Below are positions 45,150-48,494 of a stretch of DNA of 64,000 bases, one piece after another. A model generated the notes under the pieces. The model was not told where the DNA came from and did no database searches. It saw nothing but the letters and a program-made list of their open reading frames with translations. The stretch lies in NCBI GenBank assembly GCA_018061945.1, contig JAGOTD010000003.1:174028-238027 (forward strand), given 5' to 3'. Made by a program: the position numbers and the translations under genes. The DNA is from Candidatus Peribacteraceae bacterium (lineage in GTDB: Bacteria > Patescibacteriota > Gracilibacteria > Peribacterales > Peribacteraceae). The stretch's first letter is position 1. Every line of letters starts with the position of its first letter.

Positions 45150-46982
45150 TCACACACTGATTCCATAACGAGTGTTAATGGATGTTCTTATAGCAGCGAG
45201 CCTTGTCAGTGAACGGGATGTTTTCGAGAAATTGCTCGAGCCGATAGTCCCTGTATCATGCGCAGCTGTACGATAGCTACTGCTAGTCGGCTTGAAGCCG
45301 GCTTTCAAGTACGGAAGAAGGCTGGATGTTGTGAGCGCAGGGTTTGCCACGATATAGGAAACGGCGTCGGCTTCTTTTTGGGTAGTGGTGGAAGAGGCAG
45401 ACCCCCGTGTTACCGCCCATGAAGCAAGTGTGCGGGTAGAATCTTCAAAGACAGGATTTTGACCATCAAGATCGTTCACGCCAGGAGTAGTGCTCCACTT
45501 TGACGCGTACCCTCGACCTTCATTTGTAAATCCAGATGTGTTCGATGTCGTTTTTGTCAGATACCCAGCGTTGTAATCAACGTTTGCTGGTGACATCAAA
45601 TCCTGTGTTGATGAGCTATCGACGTTGTATGCTTTATATCCTGTTGAAGTAGTGCCGTAGAATAAATTGGATTTCACGGATGCATAGCGATTGGGCGTTT
45701 CAACAGATGTATACAGATGTCCGATTTCCAATCCGCACTGTCCTTCAACGTTGACTGTGTTGTGGTCAATATACAGCGCTAACCCCGCTGTTACAGAACC
45801 GTTTGAGGTAAGCAAGGCTCCAGTGTTGCTTCCTCCTCCATTTGGCAATATTAAATTGCGACGACAGTTAACCGTGAATGTGGATGTTGTCGTCGAGCCA
45901 ACTAAAAAAACGTTGCCTGAGGAATTCGTTCCGTTAAAATAGGCGACGTTGTCTGACCAGTCATAGGTAGTGTTGGCAGGCGGGTTTAAAATAGAAGCGA
46001 GAAAATGAGGATTACTGCCGGAAGGGTTGTCCCAAAAAAGAAAGCAATTCGTCACGCTGCCCGAGATGGCAATATTGTCGAATGTCTGTCTAATGAAGCA
46101 GTTTTTCATTGCTGTCCAGTTTTTGGAGCTTGTGACCAGGAGTCCATTGCCAAAATAGCAGCTGTCGAATGTCATTCCGTGCGCAGTGACGACTTTGATC
46201 ATTTTGTCAGTGGCGACGCGGGTGAAGGCGCGCGTTCCGGTTGTCTGGTCCGATCCTGAGCTTGTAGTGATTGGCCAAGAGGTGGACTCATTGGTGAGCG
46301 AGGATGCAATGGTCACGTCGGTCATGGAAAAAGACGGGACACCGTTTGTGAAAGGGGCGTTAATTTGGCCGCAACTTGTGAAGGTGCAGTTAGTGAGTGA
46401 GGACGTTAGTTGACGGTTATCCAGCAATATATTCAGTGCATTGCGACTGCTGTCTCCGATATTGGTAAAATCGCAGTACGTTGCTTGTATGCAGCCTTCG
46501 CCACCGAAGGCAGCATTGTTATGATACGCATTGCGTGTTCCGTCCCCAGCTGATGAAATGGAGCAATGTGACCCCGACGTGCCATTGATACGCCAGCCTC
46601 GGGCATCCCCCGGTGACTGCCCTCCGTCGTAGCTGCTTGCGATCTTTATGGAGTAATTGATGGTGCCGCTTGCACCCGTTGCATCAAAGACGATAGCAGT
46701 GCCCGCATTCATTGTGACGCCGGCTGCATGGCTTTGTGTATCGGTTAGCTGGCCTTTTACCGTGAGCGTTCCTGTCGAAAGAATGAGTCGTGCTGAGGCG
46801 CTGCCGTTGCCAATGGTTAATACCGCCACATCGGTTGCAGGGCTGTTGCCTACTGTACGGCTTCCGTCCATGGTCACAGTATGGTTGATCGTTACCGTGT
46901 CTCCGTCTCCTGGGATTGTTCCGCCAGTCCATGTAGATGTGGATGACCAGTTGCCATTTTGTGCGGATGTAATTGCGGCCAT
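45150..46982 (-). CDS. 610-aa G8-like/right-handed beta-helix protein
   Basis: The N-terminus NGNWSSTSTWTGGTIPGDGD followed by TVTINHTVTMDG resembles a G8 domain. The rest is Ser/Thr/Asn/Gly-rich beta structure with short strands that suggests a parallel beta-helix (TNCTFTSCGQINAPF, MKNCFIRQTFDNIAISGSVT). No signal peptide or membrane anchor is visible, which is odd for such a protein. It may be exported by a non-Sec route, or the true start may differ, but no upstream in-frame extension is evident. Its low-charge composition differs from its neighbours and may indicate acquisition. TACACT ends 11 nt before the ATG. Confidence 0.75.
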   Translation of the reverse strand: MAAITSAQNGNWSSTSTWTGGTIPGDGDTVTINHTVTMDGSRTVGNSPATDVAVLTIGNGSASARLILSTGTLTVKGQLTDTQSHAAGVTMNAGTAIVFDATGASGTINYSIKIASSYDGGQSPGDARGWRINGTSGSHCSISSAGDGTRNAYHNNAAFGGEGCIQATYCDFTNIGDSSRNALNILLDNRQLTSSLTNCTFTSCGQINAPFTNGVPSFSMTDVTIASSLTNESTSWPITTSSGSDQTTGTRAFTRVATDKMIKVVTAHGMTFDSCYFGNGLLVTSSKNWTAMKNCFIRQTFDNIAISGSVTNCFLFWDNPSGSNPHFLASILNPPANTTYDWSDNVAYFNGTNSSGNVFLVGSTTTSTFTVNCRRNLILPNGGGSNTGALLTSNGSVTAGLALYIDHNTVNVEGQCGLEIGHLYTSVETPNRYASVKSNLFYGTTSTGYKAYNVDSSSTQDLMSPANVDYNAGYLTKTTSNTSGFTNEGRGYASKWSTTPGVNDLDGQNPVFEDSTRTLASWAVTRGSASSTTTQKEADAVSYIVANPALTTSSLLPYLKAGFKPTSSSYRTAAHDTGTIGSSNFSKTSRSLTRLAAIRTSINTRYGISV

Positions 46983-47101: not shown

Positions 47102-47128
47102 AAAAAAGAGCCCTTTCGAGCTCTTTTT
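47102..47128 (-). terminator. terminator of the histone-fold gene
   Basis: AAAAAGAGC pairs with GCTCTTTTT, with a T run on the minus strand; it can also work in the other direction. Confidence 0.8.
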
Positions 47129-47147: not shown

Positions 47148-47318
47148 TTAACAGTCGCAAGCGTAGACAGTCTGGCGCTTGTTTTCCTTAGCGCGCCATA
47201 CAGCTTTCTTGAGTGCTTCCTCGACCATCTTGTCGAGAGCCTCTGTCAGATCGCCGCCTGTGCGCATGTCCATTTTGCTAAGCATTTCTTTTACGCGTGC
47301 TGTTACTGTGTAACTCAT
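47148..47318 (-). CDS. 56-aa histone-fold-like (DUF1931-type) protein
   Basis: Minus strand ATG 47318 to TAA 47148 encodes a short, charged, helical protein: VKEMLSKM, then GGDLTEALDKMVEEALKKA (long central helix), then WRAKENKRQTVYACDC. The order of short helix, loop, long helix and an R-x-T-V loop matches the histone fold as in archaeal histones and the short bacterial DUF1931/Bd0055-type proteins. Helix 3 is truncated after VYACDC, and the terminal CDC is unusual. It has its own terminator. A DNA-binding or nucleoid role is inference from the pattern only. Confidence 0.7.
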   Translation of the reverse strand: MSYTVTARVKEMLSKMDMRTGGDLTEALDKMVEEALKKAVWRAKENKRQTVYACDC

Positions 47319-47439
47319 AGTAAAAAGAGAAGAAAATAATATAGTTGATTGTAGACGCTTGTAGGCCAGTAGACAATTATTCTAGCAATGCTTTAGTGGA
47401 CTAGTTTCAACATTCGTCGAGAAGCTATGTTTGGGCAAA

Positions 47440-47522
47440 ATGTACAATTGACGATGTAAAATGTACAATGGCCTTTGAAAAATTGGTTTCATGGTCAATT
47501 GTCCATTGTTCATTGTACATTC
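47440..47522. repeat. 7-nt tandem repeat with inverted copy (ATGTACA family)
   Basis: ATGTACA, ATTGACG, ATGTAAA, ATGTACA, then TCAATTG, TCCATTG, TTCATTG, TACATTC. The hairpin ends 6 nt before the trpS start. Confidence 0.85.
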
Positions 47523-47528
47523 TGTTCT

Positions 47529-48494
47529 ATGCGTATTCTCACAGGACTTCAGCCATCGGGTCAGTTGCATATTGGTAATTATTTTGGCTCTCTCAAGCCG
47601 AATTTAGAGCTGGTCTCTAAGGCAAAGGAAAGTTTTCTGATGGCAGTGGATCTGCATGCCCTTACGACTGTTCAGGACCCTGCGTTGCTCCGTCAGTATC
47701 GTCACGATATTATTCTTGATTATCTCGCTTGTGGTTTTGATCCTGACAAATCCACCATATTTTTTCAATCCGATGTACCGGCCCATACCGAGTTAATGTG
47801 GATTTTAATGACCGTAACGCCTATGGGTCTTTTAGAACGCGCTGTGAGTTACAAAGACAAGGTAGCGAAAGGGATTGCGGCCAGCGCGGGATTATTTACC
47901 TATCCGGTACTCATGGCTGCCGATATTCTTCTGTACGATATAAATATTGTGCCCGTTGGCAAAGACCAGAAACAGCATGTCGAAATGGCGCGCGATATTG
48001 CTATGAAATTCAACAATATATTTGGTGACACTCTGGTTGTTCCCGAGCCGCAAATTCGTGAAGACGTGGCGGTTGTTCCAGGAACCGATGGCCAGAAGAT
48101 GAGTAAAAGTTACAGTAATACTATTCCGCTTTTTGGTGACGAAAAGATGATCAAGAAGGCCATTATGGGAATCGTGACGGATTCCAAAGGAGTCGAAGAA
48201 CCCAAAGATCCGGATACGTGTACTGTCTTTCAGATTCATAAACTTTTCTTGTCTGATCATGAGAAAAAAGAGCTGCGTGAAAAATATCTGGCCGGAGGAA
48301 TGGGGTATGGTGACGCTAAAAAAATGCTGTTTGAAACCTATATGGATTTTATGAAGCCGGCACGAGAGCGTCGTGCGCAGCTAGTAGCCGATCCTGCAAC
48401 AGTTGAGGCGATTATTCTAAGCGGCGGCAAGAAAGCGTCAGTTATAGCCGAAGCAACTCTCATGCGAGCAAAGAAAGCAGTCGGATTACTCTAG
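47529..48494 (+). CDS. trpS: tryptophanyl-tRNA synthetase
   Basis: The 321-aa class I synthetase has the HIGH-type motif GQLHIGNYFGSLKP near residue 13, the Trp-pocket segment AVDLHALTT, FTYPVLMAADILLYD, VPVGKDQKQHVEMARDIA, and KMSKSYSNTIPLF near residue 194. It is complete. The frame is open upstream to 47475 through repeat DNA, but MRILTGLQPSG is the family start. The inverted half of a 7-nt repeat array lies directly before the gene and could sequester or expose the start. Confidence 0.97.
   Translation: MRILTGLQPSGQLHIGNYFGSLKPNLELVSKAKESFLMAVDLHALTTVQDPALLRQYRHDIILDYLACGFDPDKSTIFFQSDVPAHTELMWILMTVTPMGLLERAVSYKDKVAKGIAASAGLFTYPVLMAADILLYDINIVPVGKDQKQHVEMARDIAMKFNNIFGDTLVVPEPQIREDVAVVPGTDGQKMSKSYSNTIPLFGDEKMIKKAIMGIVTDSKGVEEPKDPDTCTVFQIHKLFLSDHEKKELREKYLAGGMGYGDAKKMLFETYMDFMKPARERRAQLVADPATVEAIILSGGKKASVIAEATLMRAKKAVGLL

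Follow-up and report, generated by a model that had tools for sequence, protein, structure and literature searches.

A predicted face-to-face histone of 56 residues encoded across an order of Patescibacteria

The window, by which we mean the whole 64,000-nucleotide stretch analyzed here, contains on its minus strand a gene of 56 codons (47148..47318, stop included) whose product, judged from its open reading frame, the PDB matches of its family profile, and its order-wide homologues, is an alpha3-truncated histone. Its most likely function would be that of a tetrameric nucleoid protein which wraps or bends DNA non-specifically. We regard it as very probable that this single-fold histone of the face-to-face (FtF) type forms a tetramer ring wrapping or bending DNA and organizes the nucleoid alongside HU. 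Tetramerization, DNA wrapping, and abundance are presumed by analogy with the histones HLp and HTkC.

Bacterial histones have been reported in under 2% of bacterial genomes with a phylogenetically patchy distribution, and their main reported hosts are Bdellovibrio, Leptospira, Planctomycetota, Myxococcota, and Elusimicrobia (PMC10627809, PMC11390915). The open literature that we searched held no link of histones with the nucleoids of Peregrinibacteria, Gracilibacteria, or Patescibacteria, although supplementary-table entries may exist. The histone class itself has already been described; what is new is that nearly all sequenced members of one CPR order carry such a histone together with HU, and that a cysteine-rich branch exists.

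Histone fold

A PDB search with the single sequence returned HBb (E 0.002), HTkC (0.004), and HLp (0.045), with HBb as the best natural match, while matches to armadillo designs were discarded as repeat artifacts. The family profile, which was built from 27 relatives and searched against the PDB, recovered HLp 9qt0 at E 9.9e-15, HTkC 9f2c at 4.2e-13, and HBb 8fvx at 1.2e-10, followed by HMfA (0.005) and HMfB (0.49), with NF-Y proteins ranking behind HMfA. The strong matches of the profile were exclusively histones. Alone, the protein gave sub-threshold matches only in Pfam, NCBIfam, and PHROGs and lay under the Pfam and NCBIfam histone cut-offs; weak matches to YbaB, PadR, and RluA were taken as chance, as they did not recur among relatives.

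From the single sequence, AF2 predicted no more than two helices (pLDDT 68). With a three-row alignment, it placed one helix at residues 2-15, a second at 21-45, and a single terminal turn at 53-55, at moderate model quality (pLDDT 73, pTM 0.47). The best eight PDB matches of this model in Foldseek were all chains of HBb, HTkC, and HLp, with HBb ranking first and with probabilities of 0.93-0.99, but E-values of only 0.02-0.09. The same three histones came first in VIA-align (Z 4.1-4.5, rmsd 4.0-4.9 over 47-49 residues). The argument for a histone is carried by the sequence evidence, since these Z values are weak in themselves. A sequence-only reading of this DNA had proposed a histone fold from a charged helix-loop-helix pattern with an R-x-T loop, and had pointed to two C-terminal cysteines that could bind metal or cross-link a dimer. 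The pattern, the loop, and the cysteines are present as described, and the fold assignment is borne out by the profile, as well as by an AF2 model whose top matches are bacterial and archaeal alpha3 histones.

HLp, an FtF histone from Leptospira perolatii (PDB 9QT0-9QT2; PMC12701072), aligns over 53 residues without a gap, the HLp number being that of the window protein plus 7. Along the minus strand, helix alpha1 comprises about residues 5-15 (47274..47306; AF2 model, alignment, and HLp contacts, PMC12701072) and helix alpha2 residues 21-45 (47184..47258; AF2 model and alignment), the latter containing R42, which equals HLp R49. Residues 46-53 (N K R Q T V Y A) are placed by the alignments in the L2 loop (47160..47183), where N46, K47, R48, and T50 are the equivalents of HLp N53, K54, R55, and T57. 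The truncated alpha3 ends in C54-D55-C56 (47151..47159), as judged from the alignments, AF2, and the HLp literature; D55 corresponds to the RD-clamp aspartate (HLp D62), and C54 and C56 to T61 and F63, which in HLp lie at the dimer-dimer interface.

In the AF2 model, a 25-residue alpha2 is followed by a terminal helix of 3 residues, and the protein stops three residues past the L2 loop. An alpha3 of 3-4 residues is the defining feature of alpha3-truncated histones (PMC11390915), in which alpha2 is shortened as well. The third helix had been read from the letters as cut; it is indeed short, yet this is not a truncation artifact, as all single-fold relatives from the order share this end, and in the window protein and its family the chain stops one residue past the L2 aspartate. 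The same reading had placed the protein close to a lower size limit; the short third helix defines this group, and 56 aa is a normal length within it (PMC11390915).

Other histone classes fit less well. The nucleosomal archaeal class, in which alpha3 has about 10 aa, was rejected because the protein stops three residues past L2. Its members HMfA and HMfB share the histone fold, the R-x-T L2 motif, and the RD clamp with the window protein but have a full-length alpha3 and a longer alpha2, and their profile match is only weak. The pseudodimeric DUF1931 class, in which one chain holds two histone folds and the DNA-binding residues are lost, was rejected as well, as the window protein is a single 56-aa fold in which DNA residues are largely kept; among the matches listed for it (E up to 10) there was no DUF1931, which 15 of the 27 relatives matched weakly.

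Gene conservation and distribution

The reading frame runs on the minus strand from an ATG at 47318 to a TAA at 47148-47150, and its 56 codons plus TAA translate into MSYTVTARVKEMLSKMDMRTGGDLTEALDKMVEEALKKAVWRAKENKRQTVYACDC (56 aa). It is a real gene and not a chance ORF. The 1.37-Mb genome to which it belongs, a Peregrinibacteria/Peribacteria (Patescibacteria) MAG of an uncultured bacterium, holds a single match to the protein. L004, the sole other genome of the genus, encodes an identical protein (100%), and the coding DNA differs at 5 of 168 nt, all of them third codon positions and all synonymous; the neighboring tryptophanyl-tRNA synthetase (TrpS), against this 100%, has 70% identity only. 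Read from the sequences, the all-synonymous divergence between the congeners is the mark of purifying selection on the histone.

Putative signals for expression surround the gene on the same strand. A promoter-like TTGTCT-17-TACAAT (47348..47376) is kept in the congener with a diverged spacer, and directly downstream of the gene lies an intrinsic-terminator-like hairpin (47103..47128) with a U-tract, detected by folding (shuffle z -4.7), the stem of which is also kept in the congener. A simple terminator scan missed this hairpin; the U-run probably forms pairs within the stem, which would explain the miss. The leader (47319..47343) is pyrimidine-rich (84% C/T) and has no Shine-Dalgarno (SD) sequence. 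Comparison of leaders across histone genes gave a 25-nt C/T-rich leader without Shine-Dalgarno in 61 of 61 genes examined (mean 85% C/T), frequently with a CCCC core. As a control, genes of the window in general average 62% pyrimidine with an SD-like motif in 5 of 45; initiation at pyrimidine-rich sites without an SD motif may therefore characterize the lineage. A leader similar to that of the histone precedes the HU genes in L033-L035.

The histone gene stands alone, between the gene of a 610-aa protein (45150-46982, minus strand) and the divergent TrpS gene (47475-48494, plus strand). The 610-aa protein, without a Pfam match and unassigned to a family, is about 90% conserved beside the histone within the genus; visual inspection suggests a repetitive surface protein with a beta-solenoid. 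For TrpS, the TTG start set by the ORF caller at 47475 is probably too early; an alternative ATG about 54 bases further in gives MRILTGLQPSGQ and agrees with the start of the congener's homologue. An operon link between histone and trpS was considered and dropped because the adjacency is confined to the genus.

Homologues were found in CPR/Patescibacteria, as the sequence-only reading had proposed. Within the order, 68 of 74 genomes encode one (55 of 57 among high-quality genomes), and close relatives in named records belong to "Candidatus Peregrinibacteria" and "Candidatus Peribacteria" MAGs. The homologues have 54-57 aa, except for a 119-aa tandem doublet in three of the 68 genomes. Among other genomes of the class, a histone is present in 2 of 279, both from one family. 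A sample drawn from across the phylum showed a related form in ten genomes, which belong to three other families; these counts exclude a match of 39 residues (E 4e-4) that lies within an open frame of 830 aa in G548. The family trees comprise 53 columns and resolve only some clades, and for this reason no direction or source of transfer is inferred.

HU is present in 67 of the 74 genomes of the order, including that of the window. Replacement of HU by the histone was considered and dismissed, as the two coexist in nearly all of these genomes. One member of the order, G050 (complete, one contig, 98%), gave no histone match and four congeners have one, which is probably a recent loss; the histone is thus not strictly essential to the lineage. 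The FtF-type histone comes near to being a core gene throughout an order of Patescibacteria whose genomes mostly measure 0.7-1.8 Mb. Its order-wide retention beside HU and its near-absence in the rest of the class argue strongly that this lineage has adopted, or kept, a histone-based organization of the nucleoid.

DNA contacts, cysteines, and the tetramer interface

HLp contacts DNA through K15, K17, K21, T27, G29, T56, and T57, and in simulation also through K54 and R59 (PMC12701072). Of these positions, the window protein keeps R8, K10, T20, G22, K47, and T50, with the basic alpha1 residues R8 and invariant K10 standing for HLp K15 and K17 (K17 being K16 in HMM numbering). Three positions are changed, namely K21 to S14, T56 to Q49, and R59 to Y52. 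DNA affinity or binding mode may differ from HLp, because S14 and Y52 replace the DNA-energy residues K21 and R59; K14 and R52 are retained by most of the order.

By analogy with HTkC and with HLp, which wraps about 60 bp of DNA (PMC12701072), two 56-aa chains would pair along alpha2 into a head-to-tail histone-fold dimer, and two dimers would close a torus-shaped tetramer, meeting at the C-terminal portion of alpha2, at L2, and at the one-turn alpha3. The ring contacts would be made by R42, N46, and R48 against C54, C56, and R48 of the facing dimer. Such a ring is predicted to bind DNA without sequence preference on a basic rim formed by R8, K10, T20, G22, K47, R48, and T50, with the DNA running along alpha1, L1, and L2 and being wrapped or bent. 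The ring would then act as a nucleoid-organizing protein beside HU.

The window protein belongs to a subclade of 9 rows (SH-aLRT 100) in which every member ends in CDC. Inside this subclade, a group of seven rows (SH-aLRT 99) has six cysteines, located at positions 20, 25, 32, 43, 54, and 56 of the window protein. A pair of cysteines in a protein of 56 residues is unremarkable (binomial P 0.08); six in 54 residues, by contrast, are unusual (P 2e-5, with the local cysteine rate of 1%). Histones with six conserved cysteines over this length occur in L006-L009, L012, L014, L020, and L021, which represent three genera. C54 and C56 occupy the positions at which HLp has T61 and F63, two residues in contact with the facing dimer, so that a metal site or a disulfide could, on geometric grounds, be conceived of at the tetramer interface. 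It is a speculative and rather unlikely extension that the CxC motifs of opposing dimers meet at each interface of the CDC proteins and form a metal site or disulfide staple, giving a metal- or redox-controlled ring. If true, up to six conserved cysteines per histone would make for switchable chromatin, and to our knowledge metal- or redox-switchable chromatin of such kind has not been described for any known histone.

The loss of two basic DNA contacts (Y52, S14) and the gain of cysteines in the CDC subclade could also mean that the histone fold has a main role other than DNA packing, that is, a regulatory or protein-interaction role, possibly metal- or redox-linked in this subclade. Prokaryotic histone folds need not all be global organizers (PMC11390915), which speaks for the same idea. 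We consider such a role improbable, as R8, K10, K47, R48, and T50 are retained in the window protein and the full basic set including R52 in most of the order, and as the gene is near-universal, single-copy, and monocistronic, as expected of a nucleoid protein.

The assignment as an FtF histone relies on the tetramer residues. Schwab et al. gave R41, N45, R47, T49, and D54 of D4GZE0 as the strongest FtF residues; the first two, R and N, form the dimer-dimer contact, and bacterial dimers such as HBb were defined by the absence of these two tetramer residues (PMC11390915). In HLp, the five are R49, N53, R55, T57, and D62 (PMC12701072), and because the alignment is gapless with an offset of 7, they fall on R42, N46, R48, T50, and D55. 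All five, as well as K10, are invariant in 27 of 27 family representatives, and the spacing R-x3-N-x-R-x-T is found in every single-fold family member among the aligned rows. In the literature, these residues serve the FtF tetramer contact, the L2 clamp, and DNA binding. The two residues lacking in bacterial dimers (R48 and N52 in HMM numbering) are both present and invariant. The FtF motif is kept by the other Patescibacteria families and a viral contig as well.

An HBb-like bacterial dimer, which would work only as a dimer and bend DNA or coat it edge-on, could be argued from the first rank of HBb in Foldseek and in the natural matches of the single-sequence search (E 0.002). The family profile instead favors HLp and HTkC, and HBb carries S and D at the positions of the invariant R42 and N46. 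As HBb lacks two of the five invariant FtF residues, the window protein is, by its residues, FtF-type and not a bacterial dimer, and we find the dimer-only alternative very unlikely. That the protein is no histone at all but a small helical ORF arisen by chance or a small DUF without relation to histones, as its position below the Pfam and NCBIfam cut-offs when taken alone might suggest, is refuted in practice by the profile match to known histones (E 1e-14), the invariant histone L2 motif, the order-wide conservation, and the all-synonymous divergence.

Compared with known histones, the putative FtF histone shares with HLp the tetramer residues R49/N53/R55, the RD clamp R55-D62, the L2 threonine T57, a truncated alpha3, and a single gene copy. 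In addition to the three changed DNA positions, it differs by T61 to C54 and F63 to C56 and by the lack of an N-terminal tail, and its host has HU, whereas Leptospira does not. HTkC, the archaeal FtF histone of Thermococcus kodakarensis (PDB 9F2C; PMC11390915), has the same fold with a truncated alpha3, an equivalent of R42, and the RxT loop but carries E at the family's invariant N46 position, and its L1 is 2 residues longer. HBb (Bd0055) of Bdellovibrio (PDB 8FVX, 8CMP; PMC10627809, PMC11317129) has the same alpha3-truncated fold, an RKTV-like L2, and the RD clamp, and both hosts keep HU; apart from lacking the R42 and N46 tetramer residues, it has an L1 longer by 1 residue.

Histones of very small size occur naturally in this order, tandem doublets and cysteine-rich variants among them, and they could be used to test the minimum number of residues for a wrapping histone. 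Tandem doublets of the FtF-type histone occur in L052, L073, and L074 (119 aa each) and in L114. In the three doublets from the order, the N-terminal fold has A in place of the tetramer arginine and the C-terminal fold keeps the arginine; unlike DUF1931 doublets, the doublets retain the L2 and alpha1 DNA residues. A single-fold FtF-type histone is also encoded at 1965-2156 of a 63.9-kb contig from a viral collection (L128, IMGVR_UViG_3300009506_000024); it contains the R/N tetramer motif and has a short, basic tail at its N-terminus.
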